Assembly: GCF_038396675.1 (NCBI RefSeq)
Contig: NC_088934.1
Coordinates: forward strand, 45,251,001-45,315,000
Reading direction: 5' to 3'
Length of the DNA: 64,000 nucleotides
DNA from: Hydra vulgaris
Taxonomy: Eukaryota; Cnidaria; Hydrozoa; Anthoathecata; Hydridae
Part shown: positions 8,732-52,638 of the stretch, in pieces
Position numbering within the stretch: the first letter of the stretch is position 1
How the letters are laid out: the number at the start of each line of letters is the position of its first letter
Made by a program: the position numbers and the translations under genes
Notes under the pieces: generated by a model
Databases searched by the model: none
The model's input: only the letters and a program-made list of their open reading frames with translations
Told to the model about the DNA's origin: nothing

Positions 8732-10536
8732 TTAGTTCACATCAATGAATTTAAATAAACTTTTTTTAGATTGAGGAAATTGACTTTGAGTTGGTCCAAC
8801 AAATGTTTTTGGTAAAGAATTTATGATTTTAGAAGACTTATTTGAAAAAACATCCGTTTGTAAACATTTAAATGGAGTCATTTTATTTACAGTGTTTTCA
8901 GAAAAATTTCTCTTATTATTTATCTGCATTGAGATGTTAACGTTACAAACAGAAGCAACTACACTTTCTAACGATTCGTTGCTAACAGTTAGATTTGTTG
9001 ATTGTGATAAACAAATTTTATTTGGTTGAAAGTATATTTGCTGATCCATATAAGTAGTTGGTTGTACATATATATGCTGATCTGTGCAATTAGTTGATTG
9101 TAAATTGACATGCTGGTCAACGGAACCAGTTAATTGTAAACTGACATGCTGATATATGCAATCAGTTGGTTGCAAATTTATTTGTTGATTCAAAAATCCT
9201 GATTGCATATTTTTTTGATGAGCCATGCAATCATTTGATTTTAGATTTATTGGTTGATTCCTACAAACAGCTGGCTGCAAATTTACTACTTGATTAAATC
9301 TCCTATTCTAATTTTAAAAAAATTACAAATATATATAACTTTATAATAAAATATTAAAATAATAATAATAAAAAACATAACTTTATAATACATATATATT
9401 TTTGAAATAATATAAAATTTCAATTCTTAAAATAAAAAAAAAACTAAAATGCTACCTCAGTTATTCCATCTACAGTGCCAGATAAAACATTTACTTTATT
9501 TAATGATAAAACATCAACTCTGTCTGGCAATATTTCTTTTATGGATTGAATCTCATCGTTTATTTGAATAGATTGACCAACAACTTGTATACTCCCATCA
9601 TCCATTACATTATATAAGAAATTTTTAGGAGAAAGCAGAGGTGAAAAATCTACTTTATTTTCATTGAGGGACTTGTTAACACCTTCATAATTAGTTTTTG
9701 AACTATTGATTCCTTTACAAAATTGTTCATTAATTGGAGTTGGACAAGAAATTCTTTCTGGTACAGGAGGAGATATATCGTCAATAGAAGTTAGCTTTGT
9801 TAAGTTTTCATTATATTTTGTACTAGAAGATAGTACACATGGCTTTGTACTTCGATCTAAATCAGGTGGTTCTGGTCCTCTTTCCAAATCAAACCCTTGT
9901 TGTCGTAGATTTTTAAATACATTTTTTTTCTTTGATAAATAGTATTTTTGTCTTAATTTTTCTTGAAATTCTTTCAAGTTATTTTGAGCAATTTTTTCTG
10001 CACAAGTTTTAGATTCTTCTTTATTTAAAGTATCGTCAAAGCTTTTAAAGCCTCTTGAAACATTATGAACCTGAAGCTTAACTTTCAACGGCTCACTTGA
10101 GCGACGAGGACCTGTTTTTGAAGGTAAATCAGATAACTTGTTAAGTGAAGTACTTGTAAGAGATTTTTGGCTAACAACAGATAATCCTTTCTTACATTTT
10201 ATAGTGTTCATAAAACCAGAAGTAACCAATCCTAACCTATGCTCTAGCTGAACTTTTTTACTTTCCTTGACTGTTTTATGGTCTGAAGTATCATTTATAG
10301 CCAAAGTTGACAAAGATAAGTTTTTTACACTTTTTTTCTTTTTATCAATACAAAATGACCTATCACGAAATATGTTAGAATCATTCATATCAAGAATAAA
10401 ACTGTTAACTCCATTTTCAAAAGAATTATCTTGACAATTTTTATTTTTGTAAACATTACTATCAGCTGTTTTTCTTTCATCACTACTAGCAAAAATGCTA
10501 TTATTTATGCTGTCTTTGAAATCTAACAAATAAAAA

Positions 10537-10585
<49 letters not shown>

Positions 10586-10613
10586 GTTGTTACTATTATT
10601 GTTATTATTATTA

Positions 10614-10678
<65 letters not shown>

Positions 10679-11687
10679 GATTACAATAACAACATAATAA
10701 TGATAATAAAGCAACGACAACAACGATAATAAAAAATATGATACAAAAAATAGAAACAGCAAAAATAAAAAATAAATTGAATTAAAAAAAAAACTATATT
10801 AGTACCAGACTCTGTGATCTGCAAAAAATTTTCAAATGATAAAAATCCACATTTTAAACTGTTTTTTATTTCCAAAAAAGAATTTATCCATTCATCTTGC
10901 AAAACAGAACTAACACACCCAAAAATAAATTTCTCAGTTTCTTCACTTTCAATGACTACTTTAAAGGCATACTGGTGAGATTTTAAACTATTAACTTTTT
11001 CAACAAAAGTAACAGATTCGATATTGTGTGATATACTCAAGTCTATAAGTGATTCATTTCCATATAGTTCAAGGGCAAAAGGATTAGAACGCAAAACCAA
11101 ATAAGTCTTGTTCAAACTCTAAAAAAGTTTTTTTTTTAATTAAAAAAAAAAAAAAGTATTACTTATTTGCCAAAGTCTATAAATAGACACGACACAATAT
11201 TGTTTTCCATCAAGTTGGTATTTCAATACATGCTTAATGATATGAAGACCATATTTTTTTACTTTTTATTATTAACTATTTAATTAACTAACAAATGCGT
11301 CCGCATTTAAAGTGTATCTCTATAATTATGATTTCTCTGATCTAATGGCAAGTGTTATAGAAAACGGATGTTTAATTGCAACGCTTAATCCGGTCTCGTG
11401 TGATATTTATAAAAAAGAGTTCTGGTAATAATACCAGACAAATATATTCTTATGCTTAAATAAAATTAATACTGGCAGTAGCTTCTATTGATAATAAAAT
11501 TGATTATTTTAAATTAACTGTTAAATAGTATCTGATTTTTTTAAATTTTGCAAATACCTATGACGTTTAAAAAAAAGCATGTAACAAAAAATAAAAAATT
11601 TACCTTCGAAAATACTGATGATTTCTTTACAATCTTAACATCAATATAACCTTGTCTTACAATTTTATGATGTGAAGCTGACCTCAT
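8732..11687 (-). CDS. PH-domain adaptor-like protein, four exons
   Basis: Exons on the minus strand: 11687-11604 (ATG, 28 codons, donor GTAAAT), 11118-10806, 10522-9456 and 9307-8732 (stop). All introns begin GT and end TTAG or TTTAG; lengths sum to 2040 nt, 679 residues, with every junction in phase. Residues about 10-120 form a pleckstrin-homology domain: a GYIDVKI start, a KTYLVLR strand and the C-terminal-helix Trp in DEWINSF. PH domains bind phosphoinositides or proteins at the membrane. The rest is low-complexity Ser/Lys/Asn-rich sequence with a possible SH3-binding motif PPVPER, a coiled-coil-like LKEFQEKLRQKYY stretch, and in the last exon degenerate 14-residue repeats around INLQPTDC and VNLQSTNC. 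The architecture suggests a GAB/DOK/IRS-like docking adaptor; that is inference. No catalytic domain is seen. Frame intact, so probably the only complete host gene here. Confidence 0.8.
10537..10679. repeat. (TTA)n microsatellite in intron
   Basis: About 140 bp of TTA repeats with a few TTG and TAC interruptions, wholly inside the second intron of the PH-domain gene and 15 nt from the acceptor of exon 3. The poly-asparagine frame it creates is not coding. Confidence 0.95.
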
Positions 11688-17524: not shown

Positions 17525-19740
17525 ATGAAACTTTCAAGTCATATAATAGGCGAGTCTTGTAACTGCATTCGTTTAAAGTGTTTTAAAGTTATTAGTTTGC
17601 AAGATAGACAAACAATTTTGGACAAGTTCAATCAAATGTCATGTAAAGACCAACAGGATGCTTTTTTGACATCGATTGTAACTCCAATGGAAGCGAGACA
17701 AAAAAGACCTAGAATACGAAGTGAAGATTTACACTGCTATTCTTATCAATATCATTTATTAATAGCAAGAGACTCCTATGTAAAAATTCAAATTTGTTAT
17801 AAAGCGTTTCTTTCTATATTTAACATAAGCAAATCTAGGCTTGAAAGAATACAGAAGGTCTTAACAACGACTGGTAAGTAGTTATGCATTTTCATAAAGC
17901 AAGTAATTTTTTTTTCAAAATATTTTCAGAGTACACACAAACTTATTTATTGGCAAGTTAGTGCAAAAGCAAAGTCAAAACTAATAAAAAAGTTGTCAAG
18001 TATATTATTGAATAATGTTTATTGGATTATGATTAAATAACGTTTATAAGTTTTTGGTATAATATACCACCATAAACCAATGAGCATATATTGGATTTTT
18101 ATTTTTAATTTATAATAAAATTAAAATAATTTAAAGTTTCAGAATATAAATATAAAAATGTTTTTCAGCCTAGTAATCATAATCGTCATATCCATTTTCC
18201 ACTTTCAGTTTTGGTTCTTTTAGTTTAAGAATTGGTTTGTTCTTTTTTTTAATTCTGTTGAAACATATTACTTTTTTTTATAGGAATATCGCCTAAAGAT
18301 CAAAGAGGGAAACACATGAACTGTCCTCGAAATTTTACAAAAGACAAAAATGAGAGAATCATAAATCATATTCGATCTTTTAGAGGACAGCAGTCTCATT
18401 ACTCTCTCAAAGATTCTAAGAAAGTCTACCTTCCTGAAGATCTTAATCTTAGCAGGATGCATGCAATGTATTTAGAAAGTCTCCAAGGTAAAACCTGTTC
18501 AAGAGAAAGTTATAGGTAAGCAAAAAAACAAAACAAAATTTTATTGTGGCTGATTTTTGAGCAATATTTATAACATTGTAGACAGTTCTTATTTATCTTA
18601 ATAATATTAGATCTTATTAGTATTATTTTTTTTATATTCAGATGCATGTTTAATAAGAAGTTTAACATTGCCTTTGGTTACACAAGAAAAGACACATGTT
18701 CAACATGCGATAGATTTAAAATAGATTTGTCAAATAGTCATCCTAAACATGAACTAGAAAAACTTCTAGCTGAGGGAGAGCTTCACTGGAAAAAAGGAAA
18801 ACTTTTTTATGAAAGGAAAACTGTTGCTGTACATAGTGCACACTCTTTGACCTGGTTTGCTGCAATTGCGTTTGATTATTGGAAGAATCTTCCGTGCCCT
18901 AATATTACAACCAATGATACATATTACAAACGAAAACTTTCTTTGTATACTTTTAACATACATAACCTGGGGGCTAATAAAGTTTACCTTTTTTCCTATG
19001 ATGAGACAATAGGAAAAAAAGGATTGAATGATGTAGCATCAATGTTGTTGCACTACTTTATTGAAATCCTGTCTAAAGTAGTCACTCACCTTCAACTCTT
19101 CTGTAATTCATGTCCTGGACAGAATAAAAATTGGACTATGCTACGATTTCTTCACTACATGGTCCATCAGAAAAAAAGATTTGAAAATATTAAACTATCT
19201 TTTCCTATCAGAGGACACTCTTATATGGAATGTGATCGAGACATAATCGTAATCAATCAAAAGATTCATATAGATACTCCAGCTGACTGGTGTAGGTACT
19301 TTGAGGATGCAAGAAAAAGTCCTTCTCCTTTTTATATAATTTCAGTTGAAAACACCATGCTTCTAAATATAGAAAAGCACATTAAAACTTTATATTTTAC
19401 CTCATTTCCAATTCAAACTCAGACGCTTCAAGAAATTGTAATTTCAAAAACTCACCCAGATAAAATAATTTACAGAGATAGCTGGAATGAACCATTTCTT
19501 GAGGCTACTGTCACAAAACCAATTAAAAAGAAGAGAATATTTTTAGAGCCCCTTCAACCTTTAAACAGAGTCCTCATACCTATTTCATTAGCAAAGTATA
19601 AAGACCTACAACATCTCAAACTCTTTTGCAAGCTTGATGCACGAGAATTTTATGACTATCTTCCGTATGAAAAAGATGGTCAATCATCTCCTGTAAATGA
19701 TTACTCTGACTTTGATGAAGATGAAGAAATTGAATTGTAA
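17525..19740 (+). CDS. Transposase-like protein, DUF7869-like
   Basis: Exons 17525-17873, 18284-18515 and 18642-19740, each with GTAAG donor and AG acceptor, join in phase to 560 codons including the stop. The protein has CNCIRLKCF near the start, a CSTC pair (TRKDTCSTCDRF) and an RNase-H-like core: LFSYDETIGKKG, FCNSCPGQNKNW and FPIRGHSYMECDRD. These three blocks occur in order in a widespread eukaryotic family, annotated as far as I recall as DUF7869, thought to be transposases. In relatives the second block usually reads with Asp at FCDSC or FSDNC; here it is Asn (AAT), so catalysis may be lost despite the open frame. The C-terminus is acidic. The start codon is uncertain because a basic upstream ORF lies in another frame. 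Sole gene of the TIR element. Confidence 0.7.
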
Positions 19741-22802: not shown

Positions 22803-23345
22803 TCATTCAAGTTTATCATCATTGGCTAAATGAAGTAAAATGCGGGCATGCGGCAAATCACACTTTTGAAACTCAATAACCTGAACATGCGTTACAACTT
22901 TGCCTAATACACCATGTTTAAATATATCATTGAGGAGGTTATTTAACTTGAGTTTAAATACTCGATTGACCAAATCAGGTTTATTATTCGCAGTCTGACT
23001 CGGATATAAATTTTCTGTTATTTCGCCCCATTTTGGGTTGCAAGTAAATATAATAAAAAGATCTGGTTTACTATACTTTTTAATAATTGCTATAGCATCT
23101 TCAAAGTTTTCTTTTAAAGCTCTAGGACTTCCTACATAAGATGATGACAAAACAACTACTCGCCCTGGTCTAACATTACATTCGTTCGCAATGTTGTTAA
23201 TATGTTCATGTAAGACATCATACTGCTCGCTTCACTTCACAGTTTATTTTGATTATTTCTAATAAAAGCAAGATTAGATTTTGGAAAATTAAGTGAATTA
23301 AGTGCCTTCCTTCCAACTATATCAAGCTTTTGTATTACTATGTCT
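22803..23345 (-). pseudogene. Helitron Rep-domain relic
   Basis: The open part encodes SSSYVGSPRALKENFEDA, KPDLFIIFTCNPKWGEI and LPHARILLHL, which are hallmark blocks of the Helitron replication-initiator (HUH) domain. Upstream pieces SNLAFIRNNQNKL and YDVLHEHINN extend the match to 23345, with a stop and frameshift near 23235. The HUH motif should read HAH; here it is HAR, so a metal ligand is lost. Helicase and catalytic tyrosine regions are absent. Helitrons transpose by rolling circle; this is a dead internal fragment with no visible 5'-TC or CTRR-3' hairpin end. Confidence 0.85.
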
Positions 23346-27224: not shown

Positions 27225-27530
27225 ATAATATTTTAAATCCCCTAAATGACTGGGGAGGTTGCTCAAAATTTATATGGTCATAGTTTTTGAACACGAAGAG
27301 ATAATTGCATGACATTTGAGATTTATTAATGAACTTAAATTTAGTTTAAAATGTTAAAAAAAATGTATATGTAAATGTTATAAACTCGTCGCTCTCACGC
27401 TAATGGCATGAAAGGGAGGGAAACATTTTAGGGGTTTATTGTTAACAGACTCCGATTTCGCAATACTTATGAAAAGCTTTACATAAACATGAATATATAA
27501 ATGTTTGGAGTTTGCTCCAAGTCGTTACAA
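27225..27530 (+). repeat. Interspersed repeat R1, copy 1
   Basis: Shares with 39030-39310 (minus) and 58290-58590 (plus) the order ACTTTATATGGTCATA-like word, GATATTTAAATTTAT-like word, TCTCACG-like word and finally ATGTTTGGAGTTTGCTCCA. The last word occurs at all copies and is itself partly palindromic (GGAGTTTGCTCC). Non-coding; family unknown. Confidence 0.65.
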
Positions 27531-27621
27531 AAAGTTAAATTCTCAAAAAAAAAACATAAAGCTTGCTACGAGCCTGATTTTAAATATGTGATTGGAATCT
27601 GGTTGTTTAAATATTGTGCAC

Positions 27622-27678
27622 TTTTGTTAACTTTTTTACTTTAAATTTTTGAAAATTTAAAGTAAAAAAGTAACAAAA
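27622..27678. repeat. Hairpin, about 26-bp stem
   Basis: TTGTTAACTTTTTTACTTTAAATTTT is followed at once by a complementary arm, with one small bulge. It lies 120 bp outside the left end of the Transib element. Confidence 0.8.
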
Positions 27679-28980
27679 ATTTACTGAAATAAAAAGAAGT
27701 TATTTCATCTGTATGATAAAATAACATCAAAATACTTTTTTTCACAATCGACTATATAATTTTAAATTTAAAAGTTTTTTGAACCATCCCATAGTGCAAT
27801 GCACAGTGGGTCAGAATGCCCATTTTTGTGCCAAAATTATTTTTTTATTAAATATTATTAAATTTGATATAAATAACATACTTAGAGCTTCTAAACATAT
27901 TTGTGACTAAAAAAATGATTTTATTAATTTTTTTTTCTTAATAATTATAAATACAGCAAAAAAAAAATTAAAAAAAATGCTTTTTTCACATCTTATCAAC
28001 TCAATTCAAACACAATCCACAGAATAAACATTAAAAAATTACATTTTACTGTTTTTAATGGGTACACAATCCTATGAAAAAAATACTTTCATGTCTTATC
28101 AACTCATTCAAACACAATTTACAACTTTAAGGCAACCATCTATGTCTGCATATATTTAAATGAAGTATTTACAAATTTACAATGTTATCTCCTGATAATA
28201 ATAACTCCAAAACCTCAACAGGAAAGTCTTTCTTTTTTGAAGTGCAGGTTTGCCTCAAAGATGCTATGACAGGATCAGATGAGCAAAGAAATCTTTTCAA
28301 AATATCCTCATTTGCCATACATCTTGAAGCTTTTCGAGCATGACGTTCACGAAACCGTTCGAAAAATTTGTTTGTTGCCTCCTGTGCTTCTTCACTCATC
28401 ATTCCAATTGGCAGTGAGATTCTATTAATGATGGCTGGGCCGTGGATCAGCAGTTTGTGGAGGCTTTGTGGCATGTAGTACCATGGGTACAGTTTCACAA
28501 ACAACTTTGCAGTTTCTGTACACATCATGGTAAACTTTTCAGCATTTATTTTATAGCCAATTGATATGCTTGACAAAATAATGTGCAATTTTAAAATTAG
28601 TTCTTTATTGACACCTGTTATATTTGCAAAAGATATGGCATCAGTAAATGCTCGTCGAGAAGTGTTGCCATCATTAGATGTACCAGATCCTCCAGAGTTT
28701 GGTTGATCAACAACAAGGCCCATCTGTTGAAGAAAAGCTTGTTGGACGTGAGACTTTGTTTCAGCAACTTGTTCTTTGTCTTCTGCTGTTCTTGCTTGCC
28801 ACTTTTTGATAGGCAACTTGTAACCAATATGCAGAAAACATTTAAAACATTGAATTCAGCAATGCAGTATAGATAAACCATACTGCAAGCCTTTTGCCTA
28901 GTAATTTCTTACTATGCTGGCATCAATGTTGTTCATTTCTTTTGGTGAGCATCCTCAGATAGAGCAACTGACTTGAGTTA

Positions 28981-28988
28981 GTAGCCTC
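28981..28988. repeat. 8-bp target duplication (left)
   Basis: GTAGCCTC, identical to 30429-30436; duplicated Transib coding sequence flanking the hAT element. Confidence 0.95.
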
Positions 28989-30428
28989 TAGGGATTGCAA
29001 TCCCAGGATCCCGGACGTTTTTGGGTTCCGAAAGTCCCGGGATTCTAAACACAAAATCCCGAAATTTTCGGGATTATAGCAGGATTGAACTGATTAAATT
29101 ATTCTGTAATACAAAATGTTCAAATTTGGTAACTATACTGAATTATAACGAGTTATATAATGCTGCTTTGCAGGTTTATCCTGTTTATGCTTTATCCTTA
29201 CGATAAATGGAACAAATTTTTGAATAGACCATGGAGTTCGGGAGTTTATCATTGAAAAAAGTTTCACAAACACAAATTAAGGCAGGTTTGTTTGACTCAA
29301 CGTATAAAAAAACAATCGTTAAGTTTGTTGGCAAGACTTTTCGCGTTAAAAAGATAAATTGTAAAATTGTTGAGCGAACTTGTGGTTAAGTGATTGCTTG
29401 AGTTTATTAAGTCGCTTGAACGTTTTGAAATGATAACCTTTTTATTGCTTTTGTTGTTTACTGCAATAATGTTTACCGCAATATATGTTAATAATAATGT
29501 TTACTAATGCTTGAGGCATCATTTTTTTGCAATGACTTTGGAATAACTGAAGAAATTAACTTTAATATAATGCTGCTTTGCAGAAAGAATAAAGATGATG
29601 AAAAAGAAGTTGCTTGACCCAATAAAACAAAGAAGAAAGCTGCTTCGTGCACAACGAAAAGGTTTTACAGATATAGTAAATGAAAGTGAAGGTGCATCTT
29701 ATGAAGCAGGAGTGTTTTAGATATTGGTTTTTTGTTGTTTTATATGACCAAACCTTAAATGCTCTACTATTCCTCCGGGCATATTTTCAGACAAAAAAAG
29801 AAAGTTTGTAAATAAAATATGCATTTAATATGAATTGTTTTTTTGTTTTACATTTATTATTTAGCCACCATTTATTTATAAATATAAAATAAAGATTTTC
29901 TTTAATTTTTGTCTCTCAACATTAACAAACAACTTATTATGTTATTTTTTACAAAGTAGCTTGTTGCTACAGCAGCTACATCGGTAGCCAAATTTAAGAA
30001 AATTTATGTTTACAAATTTATTTTGAAATTTTGATTGTTTAGTTACTTTAGTCAAATACACTTTAAATGTTCAAATGTTATTTACATATCCAATTATTTG
30101 ATGAAGGTTATTCTGTAAAGTTTGTAATTTTAAAACATAATATGGAAGGTACCGTATATATATTTCTGCATTATTTTAAGATCTTTATATACACCTGCTG
30201 CCTGTTACACAATTAAAACAATTTAAGGCGCCATAGAAAATTAATTTCAGTCATTAAGGCATAATGAAATTAAATAAAAAATTGATAACATCAAAAAGTA
30301 TATTCATATATGCAGTATTAAGTTCTGTTTTTTAGCAAATATCTCACATTATATAAAATCCCGGGATTTTATTTACTTCAATCCCGAAATCCCGGGATCG
30401 TAATTCATGCCCGGGATTGCAATCCCTA
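28989..30428. mobile_element. Non-autonomous hAT element, 1.44 kb
   Basis: Perfect 16-bp TIRs TAGGGATTGCAATCCC (28989-29004 and 30413-30428), followed on both sides by TCCCGGGA/TTCGGGAT-rich subterminal repeats, and an exact 8-bp target duplication are diagnostic of hAT. No transposase is present. The interior holds a short spliced-looking ORF (29586-29720) with downstream AATAAA signals, otherwise AT-rich sequence. Confidence 0.92.
29586..29720 (+). CDS. Possible captured terminal exon in hAT
   Basis: Behind the acceptor-like GCTGCTTTGCAG lies a frame of 44 codons ending in TAG: basic at first (MMKKKLLDPIKQRRKLLRAQ), then acidic (DIVNESEGASYEAGVF). The same word ATGCTGCTTTGCAG also occurs about 410 bp upstream near 29160. 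AATAAA signals follow at about 29811 and 29885. I do not recognise the peptide. It could be a captured host exon, the end of a degraded hAT-internal gene, or chance. Confidence 0.35.
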   Translation, partial: RIKMMKKKLLDPIKQRRKLLRAQRKGFTDIVNESEGASYEAGVF

Positions 30429-30436
30429 GTAGCCTC
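30429..30436. repeat. 8-bp target duplication (right)
   Basis: GTAGCCTC, identical to 28981-28988. Confidence 0.95.
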
Positions 30437-32271
30437 AGATAAAGCTGTGTGTACTTTTCCATCAATCATTGTTATTTCAATCACATGCTTTACTTGAAGT
30501 ACCTTTCCATTGTTTAATATGATTTTTGTACAATTTAAATTCCTTATTTCTTCTTTTAGTTGAGCTTCTTCAGAGATTATAATATCTTAAGACTCTTTTT
30601 CAAACTGAAAACACAAAGGGCGACAATACAGAGTTGATGATGGTTTTAGGTTTCGCCACAAAGTTGTCTTTTTTCCACCAGCAAATGAGCTCAAGTCAAG
30701 TGGTACTATGCAAGTTAAAAAGAATGACTCTTCTATTTGTATATTACCGATACCATCTTTAGACACTGTTTGCTTATAGACACTTTTCCCTGTTGAGCCA
30801 TCAAATCCTGCCTTGTGTTTTAAAGTAGCAAATATGGTTGTATCACCAGCAACTATTTCAATAACTTCATTCTGTACTTGACATAGTCTTTGTGCAGTGT
30901 GGTTGACCAAGTTCTGCATTGAGATTTTAGCAAAAAAATCATCTATCTCTATTTCATTTGGATAGCAAGATAATTTTGCTGCCTTTATTATGTGATATGA
31001 AGGATAAAGCTCACAGTTTTTTCTCAAAGCAGCATTTCGATGTAGTTGATATCCATCTTTGGTCATATTTGTATCTAAAAGTAAAGCTAGAGCCTCATTG
31101 CCAGAGAGTTGTTGAGATATTTTGTTACTATTGTCAAAAATTCTCTTTACTGCATGTACCTCATCAAATTTATTTTCTTTTTTAAGAGAAACTTTTGCTG
31201 CAAAAAGTAGTTCATTCGATGAATGCCCATGTTGTAGAGAGTTGGTACGCCTGTACTTTGTTCGAAGTGAACAGTCATCAAAATTTTTAATTGAAGGCCT
31301 GCCACGTGTATCTTGTTTCACAGGAATATCAGTAAAAACATCAATCTCTGTCTGCAGCCACTCTTTATGCTTTTTTTCGAAACAAATACGGTTACCTTTT
31401 AAGTCCTGCCATCTCTTTCTTATATGAATTAGCAATGTTTCCAGCTTAGGGTTAGGGTTTACCAGATTCATACCATAGATAGCATCCTTTAAAACACCAT
31501 GGTCAGAGATTTTTAATTTATTTTCTAGCATGTAGGTATATATATCAATGTATTTCATTTTAACCTATAAATTCTAAAATACATTCATTAGAAATCATTT
31601 AAATGACAGCATATTTATGCCTAAAAGTTTAAAGATGATGTGTTTTATTTTTTATTAAAAAGCCAAGTGATTAATTAAAAATTAACTAATTAAAAAAACT
31701 CGTGATTTGTTTGTCGCGGGCAAAATTTTAGTTATAACCTGCTACCTAAAAGTTAATTTTTGGGCAAGGTGGTACTTTGTTGAAGCTAAAACTAACTTTA
31801 AATTATAACATATATACTTAGTAAAGATTTTAATGCATTAAAAGATTTTAAAGCATCAGACTGGAGGATATTGGAGGTTTTTTTAATTAAATAAAGTAAG
31901 CAAAAAGTTACACTAAAAAAACCTGTAAAAACACATCATCTTAAAAATTAAATAAAATTTCTTACTAACAAGCAAAAAATTTGCAGGGTAGTTATTTTGC
32001 TTCAAAGAGTATCAATCTATCAATATATAAAAAAATTATAGCGCAAATAATTTTAATTAAAAAATAGTTGACAGTTTCTGTGTAGCAGCACATATATTTT
32101 ATTTTAAAACTTACAAATCTTGCAAAAAAATTAACTTCAACAGGCCATATAAAATTTAATATAAAAGCTAGTGGCTAAAAAATATCCTTTTTTTTTGATA
32201 AGTATGGAAAACAACTATTACCATTAAACCTACGTTGAACAAAAATTTTTTTAAATTTTGGCACACCTGTG

Positions 32272-33319
32272 CATCCTTCTAAATTCGCTATACTAAATAA
32301 ATTAAAATAAGCGGTTGTTGTGGTTATAAACTTTTTTTAAGTTAATTACTTCTACTTTTTAACTTTTTAAATTAATCTTGATGTTATTTACATCAACTAT
32401 TTAAAAGTTTTTTTTAAAAGACTGTCTGGTTTAATGTTCTTACTTTGAAAATGCCTCTACATTTTGCAATTTTATTCTAAGTTGTGTGTTTTGGCTTCCT
32501 TTATTCAGCGTGGTTGTTTAAAACTAGTCTAACCTAAATAAAAGTAATTTCTGGAAATGACTAACTAGAATAATTGTTAGATAATAAAATAATAAAGGAA
32601 TAATTATTGTCTGGAATAGACTAATTGAAATTAGTTCATTCCAGACAACAGTTTTATGATTAGCTATTAATAAATAAACAAAAAAAAAAATTAATTAATT
32701 TTCATTTCTATTAGAGTGGTTGTTACGACCAGTGCTGACCAGGGCCAACCCGAACTGGGGGGTGAAAGGGTATCCCCCTCCCCCAAGCTGATATATATGC
32801 ATTTGAGTTAGCACATTTGTACATTTAGCATTTCAGTTGGCAAATTTTGAAGTATAGTTGGAAAATGTCAAATATCAAGGACCTTTTTTTTTGTGTGTGT
32901 GTGTTTTTCTTGTGGGCAAAAAACATATACGACCCCCCCCCCCCCTCTTTCCAACGAAAGACCTCTTCGGGACTGCCCTGACAACAACCTCGCTGAAAAA
33001 GAGAAGCGAAAAGCAGCTGCATAGCTACAAATATGCCTGGCTCCTTTATCCTTTACTGTAAATTTTTATCAGGGCCACTTACCTGTATCCTACTGACAAA
33101 AAATTAATTCTAAAACAAGTAAATCATAAAAATGCTTTTTCAAAGCTTTTTTGCTAAGAATCTTTATAATATTGGTGGAAAAAAAATCCTTTCCCGATGC
33201 CCAACCACAAACACTGTCCACATATATCAGAGTATTACCTGAAGTATTACCTAGAAGTGCCCCAAACAGGCAACTCAACTCAAACAAATCAACATGAAAT
33301 GACTGTTCTTTGAAAAAAT
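32272..33319. other. Non-coding; hairpin and C-rich tract
   Basis: A hairpin at 32607-32648 (TTGTCTGGAATAGACTAATT against its near complement) and a G/C-rich segment 32726-32800 followed by a C-run at 32932-32945 are present. Open frames here are low complexity and not supported. Confidence 0.5.
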
Positions 33320-34528: not shown

Positions 34529-34830
34529 AATTATTATTAAATATTAATATAATATAATTATATTAGTATAAATAAATATAAATATAAATAAAATAAATAA
34601 TGTTATTTTATTATTAAATAATTTAATTATATAATTATATCATTCATTTTATTTATATTAATATAACTATATTATATTATTATTTAATAATATAATTATA
34701 TAAGTTAATAATAATTATAATAATAACGTTAATCATTATAAATTATTAATTTATTATCTTATAATATTATATTATAAAATAATAAATTATTAACTTATAA
34801 CTTACAAAAAGCTTATAACTTACAAAAAAG
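34529..34830. repeat. Almost GC-free stretch
   Basis: About 250 bp made almost only of A and T in irregular TAATATAATTATATAA words with many internal inverted matches, then two copies of CTTATAACTTACAAAAA at 34794-34828 just before the LINE. Confidence 0.7.
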
Positions 34831-36195
34831 AATAATGGAACACTGCGTTGCTAAAGGTCTAATTTCTCCAAATCAGCATGGCTTTGTTCATCGTAAAGGA
34901 TGTGTATCAAACCTTTTAGAAACTCGGGATATCATGACGGAAGCAACTCACTGCAGACACGCAGTAGACGTCATTTACACAGACTTTGCAAAGGCGTTTG
35001 ACAAAGTACCACATAAACGCCTTCTTCATAAGCTGAGAGCGTACGGTATTCAAGGCGCTCTTCTTGACTGGATCGCAGCTTGGCTAAGCAATCAATGTCA
35101 ACGAGTGGTTATAAACGACATTACTTCTGAATGGAAAGCAGTCACTAGTGGAGTGCCTCAAAGGCTTGGTCTTGGACCCATTGCTATTCGTAATCTTTGT
35201 AAACGACCTGCCGGACAGTATTACTCATCATATGAAACTGTTTGCCGACGACAGCAAAATAATAGGGATAATTAAAAAGGAGTCGGACAACATCACTCTC
35301 CAAGATGACGTTAACAGAGCAGTGAAATGGTCACATATTTGGCTCTTGCATTTCAATGTTGAGAAATGCAAAGTAATGCATGTTGGGCGCGGATGTAACA
35401 AGTCAACGTACAAATACTCAATGTCAAACGTCGACGGCACCCGTCGTCCTCTCGAAGAAACCGCAGTCGAAAGAGACCTTGGTGTGATGGTCTCGAATGA
35501 CCTTAACGTTAGACCGCAAATAGAGTCAGCCGCATCAGTAGCAAATAGAGTGCTAGGGCGACTCAAAAAAACATTTCGCAGTCGCAGTTTTTATTTATGG
35601 CGCACTCTGTATCTCACTTACATTCGCCCCCATCTTGAGTTTGCTGTACAAGCCTGGTCACCGCATTTAAAATCAGACATTGCCATTCTCGAGCAAGTCC
35701 AACATCGATCAACAAAAACAATATTGACTATTAAACACATGACCTATGAAGATCGACTCCAACGGCTCGGTTTAACAACTCTTGAAGAACGCCGCAAAAG
35801 AGCAGATCTTATCGAGCAATTCAACACACTCGTTAACTCGAGCTTGTTAGTTTTGTCGTCCCGTAAAAAATTTCAAAAAGTAAAAATAAGTTTATTCTAA
35901 GAGGCCATAACCATAAACTAGAACGTCAGATGGTAAAAAACTGCGAGGAGCGGTATAACTTTTTTTCCAAATAGAATTGTCGCCCCATGGAATGCGCTTT
36001 CGCAAGAAGCAATGAACGCTCAATCCATCAACGCTTTCAAAAACAACATAAGAAAGTAACTTTATAGATACAATTGCTGCTTTGTCTGTAGCTTCTGTAT
36101 CTCCATGTTCGTCAGCATAGGGGGACCTAGTGTAGCACCTCTTCATCAAATTATAAATAGATTATTGTATTTGTATTTGATCACTGAATAATAAT
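34831..36195 (+). pseudogene. CR1/jockey-like LINE, 5'-truncated, frameshifted
   Basis: Starts inside the reverse transcriptase fingers (ISPNQHGFVHRKGCVSNLL), then YTDFAKAFDKVPH (first catalytic Asp block), VTSGVPQR and, after a frameshift at about 35150-35230, LFADDS (catalytic FADD), FNVEKCKVMHVG, a thumb region and RTLYLTYIRPHLEFA. Post-domain pieces reach NRIVAPWNALSQEAMNAQSI near 36050. The tail is (AAT)n-like near 36187. The enzyme would copy its RNA at a nicked target. Markedly higher GC than the surroundings suggests a relatively young insertion. Relatives: the copy at 56430-57510 is the same family. Confidence 0.88.
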
Positions 36196-40103: not shown

Positions 40104-41410
40104 ACACCCTATAAATAAAATCTCAGACAAATTTTAATTGCATTTATTATGTAATTTACTTCATGCACGCAAAAAACCTTTATACTTATTTGAAAGAGGA
40201 TTTTATAATCTATTTAAATTTAATTTAATTAAGTTAAAAATATTATTTAAATATTGAAAATAAAATTGTAAAAGTAAAGGACCTCGAAAAAATTATGGAA
40301 ATTTTTTTCCAAAAAAATCGAGAAAAAGGTAAAGCGTTTGTTGCTAAGCAGTTTATGGAATGTTTACCCAGATCAACTGCTTACGATAAAATCGTAAAAT
40401 TGGAAAATGGATCTCTAAAAAGAAAAGTTGGAAGTGGTCGATTCGCTAAGGTAGCTACTAAAGAAAGTATTCTAAAGATTGCTGCATTTTTTGAAAATAA
40501 GTCAGGGTGCTCCCAAAAGAAAGTAGCTCAAGTTTTTAACTGTAGTCAAACTCAAATTTCACAAGTATTAAAAACAATGACTAACTTTCGAACTTTTAAA
40601 AAAACAAATCGTCCAGACCGTAGCCATAAGCAGAAGAAAGCTATGCGTCCTAAATGTCGTAAAATGTACGAAAATTATAAAAACTTGGATTTTGTTATGG
40701 ATGATGAAAGCTATTTTACCTTAAACAATAGCACATTAGCTGGTAATGGTAGGTTTTATGCCGCTAATCCTTCTCAATATTCTGACCAAGTAAGAACTTG
40801 CGTAAAAAGTACGAGGACAAGCTCTTAGTTTCTTGTAGCATCAGCCCCCGTAGAATAAGCCCTCTTTATATTCATCACAGTAAGCAGGCAATCAACCAGT
40901 ATACTTATAAAGAGATACTAGAAAAAACTTTACTTCCTCTAGTATCAGAATATTATAAAAAAGACAATGAGTTTATCTTCTGGCCTGATCTAGCTCGATC
41001 ACATTACGCAAAGTCGGTCATCGACTTTTTAAAATTGAAAAAAATCAAAGTTGTACCCAAAGGTATACCCCCAGCTAACATTCCAGAAGCAAGACCAATT
41101 GAAAACTTTTGGGGTGATTTAAAACGGCTAGTTTACGAGAATAATTGGAGAGCTGAGAATTTGGAAGAGCTTGAAGCAAGAATTCGATATTATTATTCAA
41201 AGATGAATAAAGAAATTTTCCTTACTCAAATAAAACATTTTTCAAAAAAACTTATAATATTGCTAAATATGGTATTTGAAATAGTTATTTTAATATATTT
41301 ATAAACTACGTATACTAACATATTAACAGTTGAAATATTAAATAATAAAACTTATTAGTTCTTAAAATATTAATTTTTAAATTTTGTCCAAAGTTTTATT
41401 TATGAGGTGT
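40104..41410 (+). mobile_element. Mariner (DD37E type), copy 1
   Basis: A 1307-bp element between TA dinucleotides at 40102-40103 and 41411-41412. TIRs read ACACCCTATAAATAAAAT and ACACCTCATAAATAAAAC with similarity continuing into GACAAATTTT. It carries one intronless transposase gene, now frameshifted. Confidence 0.85.
40295..41304 (+). pseudogene. DD37E mariner transposase, frameshifted
   Basis: An N-terminal helix-turn-helix domain (KKVAQVFNCSQTQISQVL) is followed by VMDDESYFT with the first catalytic Asp. One frameshift falls at about 40790-40800. The second frame then gives YEDKLLVSCSISPR, FWPDLARSHYAK (second Asp) and PEARPIENFWGDLKR (catalytic Glu). Thirty-seven residues lie between the second Asp and the Glu, which places it with the DD37E group of the IS630-Tc1-mariner superfamily. 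Only one shift separates it from an open gene. About half identical in sequence to copy 2 at 46445-47474, so the two are related lineages rather than recent duplicates. Confidence 0.9.
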
Positions 41411-46279: not shown

Positions 46280-47587
46280 AGACCTGATGAATAAAAAATG
46301 AGACAAAATTTAAATCAATTTATGTATGCTATTCATAATCATGCAATTGAAATAAATTAGTATATTTATAGGAAATTTAATACTCTATTAAAATTATATT
46401 ATAGTTTTAAAATATTAATTAAAAAGGCTCCGTATAAAACAAGTTTGCAAGAAGACCTAAGAAAACGCATTTGCCAATTTAGAAATTCGCATCTGGAAAA
46501 GGTAAAAATCTTCACAGTAAAACACTTTCCAGAAGAAGGAGCATCGAAAGCGACCATACATCGTGCTCTAGAACGTGTAGACAATAATTTAGGCTATCAA
46601 CGAAAAAAAGGAAGCGGTCCAAAGGCGAAAAAAGTGGACAAAAAGCACATAGACCAATTGAAAAAGGCATTTGATCATCATAACTGTGTTTCACAACGTC
46701 AAGTAGCTCAAAGATTCAATTGTGACCAATCGTCTATATCTAAAATTCTTAAAAACAAGACGAATACTAGATATTACAAGAAGAAAATGATTCCACATCG
46801 AAGCGAAAGCCAACTAGCTCGAATCAAACCTTTGTGTCGGCATATATATCGCAATTTTAGGAATTTTGATTTTGTCTCGGATGACGAATCGTATTTCACA
46901 TATGCGAATACAACATTGGCTGGCAACGATGGCTTCTATTCTAGTGACGTATCATCTACAACTAGCGACGTCAAATTCAAAAGAAAGAAAAAGTACGAGG
47001 AAAAGGTGTTAGTCTCTTTGATTATATCGCCCAAAAGGACTTCAAACCATTGTTTTTTGAAAGTGGCCGGGCAATCAACAAACAAGCATACATCGGATGT
47101 CTCCACAAGCGGTTAATACCCTTCATTGATGAACATTATAAAAATGAAGAGTACTTGTTCTGGCCAGATTTAGCTAGTTCGCACTATGCAAATGAAATGG
47201 TTTCTTTTCTCGATGCCAATAACATCAAATACCTGCCAAAAGTAAAAAAAATTCACCCAATGTACCAGAAGCTCGGCCAATTGAGGACTTTTGGGGTCAG
47301 TTGAAACGCTTAGTCTACGAGGATAATTGGCAAGCAACAAGCATCCCTCAACTCAAAAGGCGTATCTTGAATTATCTTAACAAAATGGATCCGGAAGTGG
47401 CAAAACATTATGCCTCAATGACTTCAGTTTGTCTAGGTCGAGTTGCTTTTAATGATGTTATTGAAAACCAATAAATATATATTTTTTAATATCATATGAT
47501 TGTTTATAAATTTATTTTAAATTAAATTTGATAACTATGGCTATAATAACAATTTTAAAGTCGTCTCATTTTTTAGTCATCAGATGT
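46280..47587 (+). mobile_element. Mariner (DD37E type), copy 2
   Basis: 1308 bp between TA at 46278-46279 and 47588-47589. TIRs AGACCTGATGAATAAAAAAT and ACATCTGATGACTAAAAAAT, followed by GAGAC on both sides. Removing the element and one TA restores the TPR codons for GKYNE in the host frame, which fixes the boundaries exactly. Confidence 0.93.
46445..47474 (+). pseudogene. DD37E mariner transposase, two frameshifts
   Basis: Helix-turn-helix region (RQVAQRFNCDQSSISKIL), then FVSDDESYFTYANTTLAG with the first Asp, and KYEEKVLVSLIISPKR. A frameshift near 47050-47060 leads to INKQAYIGCL and FWPDLASSHYANEM (second Asp). A second shift in an A-run near 47245 leads to NVPEARPIEDFWGQLKR (catalytic Glu) and a C-terminus ending near 47474. 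Same domain order as copy 1, but diverged. The A-runs are plausible sites for slippage or for sequencing error. Confidence 0.9.
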
Positions 47588-49890: not shown

Positions 49891-52638
49891 GGCCTACTGT
49901 TATTATACGGCCTGATTTGTTGCATTTTCCATAAAAAATTAAGAGGCCAGTTTTTTTACGGCTAATTTTTAAATTTTATATTACGCATGAAAGGCTTTAC
50001 TAACAACAACAGCAATAACAATATATTTACCAGTGAATATTATACAAAGGTGTTGAAAAATATTGAATTATAATATTTTAACAATTACTATATAAATATT
50101 TGCTTGCATGCATTGGTTTATGCTTTTATAGTCATTTAATATGTAATGTATTCTGAACTGATTAATATGTCAATGTATTTTGACTGAAAGCGTTGATAAA
50201 ATAGTTAATCTTGATTCTTTGACAGAACAAATTTCTCCGCCAGGCTTTGCATTTAAAAAAATTCATGATAGTGTTGTTTATTAAAAACTATGTTTTGATG
50301 AAGGCATACCAACTGTTTTTGAGTCAATAACTCTAAATAAAGGCATACCAACTGTTTTTGAGTCAATAACTGTAAATAAAGATCTTTATGTTTCATTGTC
50401 ATATAAAGGCTATCATATTTCTTTACCTGAATAGTTTCATAGAGGTCATAATTGCAAATTAACAAACTGTAGTATGTTAGAAAGTTTTTCTGTCTATATT
50501 AGAAATAAAGCCAATGACATGAATTCAAGGCAGACCTTCATATTCTGCATCCATTATACATTATGTACTAATTTTTATGTCACACTTCAGCACAGTCTTA
50601 TAAGTTATTGTTAGAACAACTACCTTTACCATCTTTTAGTTTACTTAGAAAAATCCAAATTGGTGATATAAATGTGTATAAAGCTATAACAGTTTTGTTA
50701 CAAAAACATTGTGTATCAAGTGGTTGTGTGCTTCTTGTGTATGAAATGTGTCTGCAGAAAACAGCCCAATATCAAAGTGGGAAATATATTGGTGAAGATT
50801 CAGAAAGTAATCTTTATAAAAGTGTTGTTGTTTTATGATTTTAGGGCTTCAAAAAACTATTTCTTATGTTGTGAGATCATCACCTGAAGTTTGCACAACA
50901 GGATTATGGTTGAAAAAAGAAATTGCACTAATCAGGTTTTAAAGTAAGAGCTATTGTTACAGATAATCATTCTACCAATGTTAATGCATTTTCAGAGTTA
51001 CATAAATCCTATACTGGAGATGAAAAACTATTTATTTGTCATCCAGCTTATAAGTGTTTTAAAAACATATCTATTATATGGTATAATTCGTTTAATAAAA
51101 AATATTGGAAATAACTTGTTGAATGGAAAAAAATTTGTTTTTCCTTCTTTTTTGTTTGATTTCTTCAGAGACAAAGTTGATGTTCCAGCTGGTTTTATTA
51201 CTTGGGATTTATTTCATAAAGTTTATAAAAAAGATCAATTATTAAATGGAAACTTGAAAAAAGTGAGGAAAATTAATTATCAGGTCACTCATCCTGGAAA
51301 CAATAAGGACAATTTTTATCATTGCAAGGATAACAATGCAGGACAATTTTTATCATTGTTTCATAAGTTATTTATCACACCTAATTCAAAGCAGATGTTT
51401 AATACATCCAATCAGCTCAGCAATGCTGCTGTAAAAGGAGATTAAAAAACCCCAAATTTTATAGAGAAATTGCAAATTGAATTGAAATTTGGTCAACATG
51501 TGAATATTTTACTTTACCCAAACAAACTTCTCATGCTCTTATCACAATATTACGTGTAACTGCATCCTTATTGATGATTTTCTTGAAGAAAGCTCTACAT
51601 TTGCTCTTACTTTCAGGTTACAAAGTGATCCTTTGGAGCTACACTTTAGTAAGTATAGACAAATGAGCGGTGGTCGATTTATTGTAAATCTTTTAGAAGT
51701 TTGCAACAGTGAAAAAATTTTGGCAGTAAGAAGTCTTCTAAAGGAAGATATTATATTCTGGGATGAAAATTTTTATCAAACATTTGAATACTCTACTTTA
51801 GAAAACATTATGCAAGATAATGTCAGCTTTATGAAGATAGCATGGAAGTTGCTGTTACTAAATCCATTGCTAAAAAATTGAAAAAAAGATTTAAATGTCT
51901 ATCTTGTGGTTAAAAAATGGTTTCTACAGACCAAGATGTTCTTAATAACGAATATCTGAAAATATTATCCAGAGGTGAACTTATATGTCCAAGTCAATCC
52001 GTGTCTGATTTTATTTGTCATCTTTTTAGTATTCTAGATATTATTTCTTCTATTCTAATCAAACATCGCAGTTATTCTTTATCAATTAAAAGTTTTGCAG
52101 AACAAATTTTTAAGATTTATTATAGCAGTGTTGATTTTACATGCAAGAATCACCAAGAATGGGGAATTAAATATAGATCTCGAGTTGTCATTAATTTTTT
52201 TTATAACAATTTACAAAAAGAAACAACAGATTTTGTAAGAAAAGATCAGGTAAAAGAGTTTAAAAAAAGACAAAGAACTGATAGCTAGTGCTAATAAAAG
52301 ATTTTTTCTCAAATTCTTAATACATATAAAATTACAAACCTCTGTTTTTATTTCCTCATAAGAAATGTAAGTAGTCTCTTTGCAATATGTTTGTTTTAGT
52401 AGCATTTTGATACATAGCTGATTGAAAGCCTATTTCAGTATTTCATATGTTATTGGAATATACTGAAACAGGGAATCAGTTAGCGAAAAATATTGTTTAG
52501 CATAATGTAACTACATGATGATTATCTCAAGTATTCCTCGACTATTTAAATAAAATAAACATTTGCCGTAAAAAAACTGGCCTCTTAATTTTTTACGGAA
52601 AATGCAACAAATCAGGCCATATAATAACAATAGGCCAT
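49889..52638 (+). mobile_element. P-type transposon, 2.75 kb
   Basis: TIRs of about 74 bp (49889-49962 and 52565-52638) begin ATGGCCTAYTGTTATTATAY and differ at three positions by eye. They are flanked by the duplicated GCTGTGATC (8-9 bp; P elements make 8-bp duplications). The interior holds a broken P/THAP9-like transposase. Low TIR divergence suggests fairly recent insertion despite the decayed gene. Confidence 0.9.
50190..52288 (+). pseudogene. P-element/THAP9-like transposase, decayed
   Basis: Blocks in order: SPPGFAFKKIHDSVVY, then SLSYKGYHISLPE, LLEQLPLPSFSLLRKIQIGD (50608 on), LVYEMCLQKTAQYQSG, VRAIVTDNHSTNVNAFSELH, LFHKVYKKDQLLNGNLKK, then AAQFLSLFHKLF-type sequence (GQFLSLFHKLFITPNSKQ), LELHFSKYRQMSGGRF and a C-terminal region to 52288. 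The order is that of P-superfamily transposases, which are DDE-type GTP-dependent enzymes. YEM and TDNHST carry plausible catalytic acidic residues. Stops and frameshifts occur between almost every block. A 42-bp segment (AAGGCATACCAACTGTTTTT, then GAGTCAATAACT) is tandemly duplicated at 50297-50378. The N-terminal THAP zinc finger is not visible. Confidence 0.85.

Follow-up and report, generated by a model that had tools for sequence, protein, structure and literature searches.

The window analysed here is a 64,000-nucleotide stretch of Hydra vulgaris DNA (contig NC_088934.1, positions 45,251,001 to 45,315,000). Its minus strand carries, between 28169 and 31564, a broken DDE transposase with open stretches of 325, 80 and 228 amino acids. 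Four pieces of this gene were distinguished. Piece A (30587-31564), which is open for 325 residues, contains the N-terminal region, a GRP motif and a first Asp in the sequence GFDG, and piece B (30437-30586) carries the frame of piece A on past a stop at 30584-30586 and contains a second Asp in MIDGK. Piece C (28856-28980) is a decayed zinc-motif region in a frame that differs from that of piece B, and piece D (28169-28855, stop included) provides 228 residues that include the Glu of SEEAQ and end in the C-terminal tail. The gene is located within a minus-strand element at 27790-32271, whose 4482 bp include a nested 1440-bp insert and the 8-bp duplication of that insert.

When the pieces were searched against PDB with phmmer, piece A matched a single sequence, 6pqn_A (E = 2.2e-21), which we take to be HzTransib (entry title: putative DNA-mediated transposase). 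Piece D matched the same chain with an E-value of 1.2e-51, and these two values place the block matches far beyond chance. Joining pieces C and D, with X at the stops, raised the 6pqn match to 3.6e-58. In the printed alignments to 6pqn, 64 of the 158 aligned residues were identical for piece A (40%) and 107 of 254 in the other alignment (42%), or approximately 41% overall. The 51-residue MIDGK piece gave only a weak match by itself (E = 1.1), yet it was collinear with the same chain. Piece D also matched the Pfam RAG1 profile (PF12940) above the cut-off (E = 7.7e-08), whereas pieces A and B had no match to this profile; in PDB, mouse RAG1 was its highest-scoring vertebrate RAG1 chain (E = 2.2e-06), and amphioxus RAG1L gave 0.0052. 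The transposase pieces had no match to any other DDE family in the Pfam and PDB searches, and a single scan of viral contigs gave no match. Judged by these alignments, the gene at 28169-31564 is a Transib transposase, with insect-type Transib as its nearest relative and a far weaker likeness to RAG1. A previous sequence-only reading had described the region as a RAG1-related Transib transposase relic, a view that agrees with Transib being the best match and with the lack of a rival DDE family in these searches.

All three catalytic acidic residues (Asp, Asp and Glu) are retained, and in this order. The first Asp, in GFDG of piece A, and the second, in MIDGK of piece B (weak when searched alone), were aligned with 6pqn, and the Glu in SEEAQ of piece D was aligned with both 6pqn and mouse RAG1. 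These residues presumably correspond to D600, D708 and E962 of RAG1. The two Asp positions proposed in the sequence-only reading are those found in the 6pqn alignments, and the conserved blocks that it quoted are ordered on the minus strand: AGFDGSTGKSVYKQT is present in 30587-31564, MIDGK in 30344-30586, and GNTSRRAF, LYPWYYMPQSLHKLLIHG and SEEAQEATNKFFERFRERHARK in 28169-28855. It had also proposed a RAG1 profile search, which detected the C-terminal piece as described above, and a search for intact relatives, which yielded copies with longer open frames in the same genome. The nested transposon at 28989-30428, the decayed zinc-motif region at 28856-28980 and the ends of the element had not been mentioned in that reading.

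A genome search with the 228-residue piece D covered 911.5 Mb in 15 contigs and returned at least 151 matches (150 of 5776 candidates scored). Among the matches listed, 28 were at least 83% identical, the window's own copy included. At least 27 further copies, 83-94% identical to the C-terminal piece, are therefore present, many of which have fewer stops or stay open over longer stretches, and 12 of these 27 relatives were fetched with flanks for analysis of the ends. Most other listed matches were 50-57% identical, often with open frames near 670 residues, and by sequence likeness these are other Transib families. Two of them, L026 (approximately 53% identical over piece D, with a 670-residue open frame) and L027 (approximately 57%), contain the same blocks as the window's copy and were assigned to a separate, larger family because of their many near-equal matches. 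A genome search with the Pfam RAG1 profile gave 24 matches, mostly to the window's Transib family. In addition, a 736-residue open frame for another RAG1-like protein was observed in the same genome (L025:2680-4887, minus strand). Its match values (7.6e-26 for 6pqn, 1.9e-12 for amphioxus RAG1L and 5.1e-08 for RAG1) place it relatively nearer to RAG1L than is the case for the element in the window.

The window's copy has decayed in its central part. Piece C can be read only through three stops (28955-28957, 28898-28900 and 28856-28858), the first of which aligns with a 6pqn cysteine at a zinc-pair position; across the same region, the related Hydra copy L027 reads CCTICGASP...YGLSSLHAWIRFFKC. 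Pieces A and B share one frame, the nested insertion follows MIDGKVHTALSEA, and piece C lies beyond it in another frame. With four stops, one frame change and a nested 1440-bp insertion, this Transib copy is dead. Its 3′ untranslated part also contains a direct duplication (27971-28016 and 28077-28118, 85% identical).

The nested insertion occupies 28989-30428. Its 16-bp perfect terminal inverted repeats, TAGGGATTGCAATCCC, and the 8-bp target duplication GTAGCCTC on its two sides (28981-28988 and 30429-30436) fit a hAT-like transposon, as short terminal inverted repeats with an 8-bp target duplication are the rule for hAT elements. Open reading frames wholly inside the insert reach at most 74 residues, and the element is probably non-autonomous; a short plus-strand stretch near 29595-29719, noticed by eye, may be a gene tail within it. 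The insert was missing from all 12 fetched copies, and in 11 of these the uninterrupted site could be seen with GTAGCCTC present once, with substitutions. These data also bear on the idea that a Transib has been domesticated here into a host gene and that the 1440-bp element lies in one of its introns. Survival of the catalytic residues and of long reading stretches would suit such a gene, but the four stops and the frame change fall in the conserved core, none of the 12 fetched copies carries the insert, transposon ends and a target duplication are still visible, and at least 27 relatives are dispersed in the genome. We consider a host gene extremely improbable.

The limits of the Transib element were determined by comparison with empty sites. 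To its left lies a high-copy repeat with at least 78 matching pieces (the best 40 of 586 candidates were scored). This repeat, which hosts the insertion and has an internal palindrome, was seen at 27420-27789 and again from 32272. Outside 27789/32272, the window's flanks match empty copies of the repeat, and all five copies examined were without the element. CATCC occurs once in four of these empty sites (L029, L030, L032 and L033), and the fifth (L031) differs by substitutions; correspondingly, the sites read ...TGAACCATCCTTCTAAATT... in four copies and a variant of it in L031. At this position, the window has CATCC (27785-27789), the element, a second CATCC (32272-32276) and then TTCTAAATTCGC. 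Because the five repeat copies run on uninterrupted, the element was assigned to 27790-32271 with a 5-bp target-site duplication.

The left end, which is the 3′ end of the gene, is at 27802-27838 and consists of CACAGTGGGTCA, a 13-bp spacer and TGTGCCAAAATT, an arrangement found with small changes in 11 of the 12 copies. Its first seven bases equal the heptamer of the V(D)J RSS. Between the duplication and this usual left end of the family, the window's copy has an extra 12 bp, CATAGTGCAATG (27790-27801), composed of a heptamer-like word and five bases, which was not present in the 11 other left ends seen. At the right end (32254-32271, the 5′ end of the gene), the inner block TGTGCCAAAATT is kept and the outer block is shortened in the window's copy. 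Homology of the 12 copies to the window extends, where complete, from approximately 27802 to approximately 32268, with the nested insert skipped. Among the 12 fetched copies, 11 have the left end CACAGTGGGTCAGAATGCCCATTTTTGTGCC, altered at no more than two bases, and seven have the right end; CACAGTGGGTCA, which begins with CAC and resembles the RSS heptamer, was likewise found at 11 left ends (with small changes) and seven right ends. Exact 5-bp duplications flanked five of the seven copies with both ends (CGTTA, CCTAG, CAATG, CGTAA and GGTTG); of the remaining two, L016 had four of five bases matching and L017 had no duplication. One other copy, L015, has the duplication CAATG and a heptamer CATAGTG, which may be coincidental.

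The position of the right end was settled by these copies from the same genome. Within the window, a pattern search with the left-end query found nothing for the right end, local alignment gave a best right-side score of 36 compared with 32-45 elsewhere (the query began one base late), and the best 20-base ungapped match was 12/20, equal to that in a larger control region. The common inner block was then seen at 32254; a 12-mer match of this kind occurred in 11 of 1000 shuffles, and with CAC adjoining in two. A minus-strand CACTATGGGATGG beside the left end was considered as a sign of back-to-back Transib ends or of a second element and was rejected, as this stretch is the surrounding repeat plus CATCC; no partner end for the putative second element was found.

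The significant matches that the C-terminal piece gave with the RAG1 profile of Pfam and with RAG1 chains would also be compatible with the relic of a RAGL transposon, encoding RAG1L and RAG2L and nearer to RAG1 than to Transib. However, 6pqn outscored the RAG1 and RAG1L chains by approximately 45 orders of magnitude with piece D. The bounded element has space for one gene, no RAG2L kelch-PHD gene is present inside it, and kelch or PHD matches were found in none of the eight flanking ORFs scanned (8 of the 16 ORFs of at least 75 residues, with three more included in the Pfam search). The Cx2Cx3GHx4C motif, given for the CTT1 tail in PMC7204232, was not found in the three minus-strand frames from 28500 to 27802; this is a weak test, as L025, a RAG1-like protein of Hydra, does not contain the exact motif either. 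A RAGL origin of the locus is thus highly unlikely.

We conclude that the locus is almost certainly what is left of an autonomous Transib DNA transposon, now dead, that lies on the minus strand and once encoded a RAG1-core-related DDE transposase. Before its interruption, the element would have been approximately 3.03 kb long, with this transposase as its single gene. It inserted into a copy of the high-copy repeat, thereby duplicating the 5-bp CATCC, and acquired stops and a frame change as it decayed; insertion of the 1440-bp hAT-like element into the Transib copy duplicated 8 bp. If the live enzyme behaved like HzTransib and RAG, it would have brought the two ends together, cut next to the heptamers via a nick and a hairpin, and placed the element elsewhere. 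Points against reading the locus as a Transib copy are the imperfect duplications of L016 and L017, the 12 extra bases on the left, the shortened right end and the weak MIDGK piece.

Several other features were observed elsewhere in the window. These include a broken reverse transcriptase in two frames at 34778-35897 (RVT_1, the second piece just under the cut-off), a fragment of a Helitron-like N-terminal domain at 22806-23231 (E = 2.6e-37), and a 388-residue open stretch at 18574-19737 that matched DUF7869 (E = 1.9e-08) and is possibly transposon-derived. Two related broken genes at 40238-41301 and 46361-47301 had helix-turn-helix matches and appeared Tc1/mariner-like by eye. Broken open stretches at 50948-51878 resembled, also by eye, the 663-residue second open frame of L025 and probably represent another transposase. 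Finally, open stretches on the minus strand at 9447-11118, with one weak PH-domain match (E = 0.001, below the cut-off), are possibly host exons.

The two ends of the Transib family differ in layout. At the left end, the window and 11 of the 12 copies have 13 bp between CACAGTGGGTCA and TGTGCCAAA. At the right end, 3 bp separate the same two blocks in six of the 12 copies; in the remaining six, this end is missing or altered. The difference between the spacers is 10 bp, or about one helical turn. The 12/23 pair of V(D)J recombination signals likewise differs by about one helical turn. By analogy, this RAG2-less, HzTransib-like Hydra family might obey a 12/23-like pairing rule, although we regard this as doubtful; if it does, neither RAG2L nor the RAG1 branch would be needed for such a rule. 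With its many copies, 5-bp duplications and asymmetric ends, the family could serve to test 12/23-like pairing without RAG2. End asymmetry itself is not new. PMC9435367 reports two-block asymmetric ends with 4/13 bp in an algal RAGL, and end asymmetry for every Subgroup I Transib and for some of Subgroup II, so a layout of this kind is already known.

Among known systems, HzTransib-type transposases (6pqn and five more PDB entries) are the closest: pieces A, C and D are approximately 41% identical to 6pqn, the catalytic blocks are the same and the arrangement is collinear. In contrast to 6pqn, the window's copy is broken and has an extra 153 residues, with the GRP motif, upstream of the aligned part. 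Subgroup II Transibs, as defined in PMC9435367, have neither a CTT1 tail nor the alpha11-alpha12 region of the zinc domain. For the zinc domain, the comparison was with 6pqn, to residues 226-481 of which pieces C and D align with one-residue gaps only. By its tail, which aligns to 6pqn and has no match to the CTT1 motif, the window's Transib looks like a member of Subgroup II. PMC9435367 describes this subgroup as the branch farther from RAG1L and names HvuTransib-7_HMp and -9_HMp; Hydra magnipapillata (HM) is listed in the legend to the Transib tree in Fig. 2 of PMC4411706, and CMC-Transib is among 14 putatively active families in PMC12220107. These published Hydra Transibs belong to the same superfamily and, we infer, to the same species. 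The value for V(D)J ancestry that the sequence-only reading had attached to this copy is that reading's weak point, since the tail is Subgroup II-like, PMC9435367 places that subgroup farther from RAG1L, and Hydra Transibs are already in published trees. With vertebrate RAG1, amphioxus RAG1L and RAGL, the window's element has in common the block around the catalytic Glu, and RAGL, as described in PMC9435367, also shares the 5-bp duplications and two-block asymmetric ends of the window's family; it differs from all three in its much weaker match, its single gene and the lack of a RAGL-type tail. The element is an ordinary fossil copy of a well-known superfamily.
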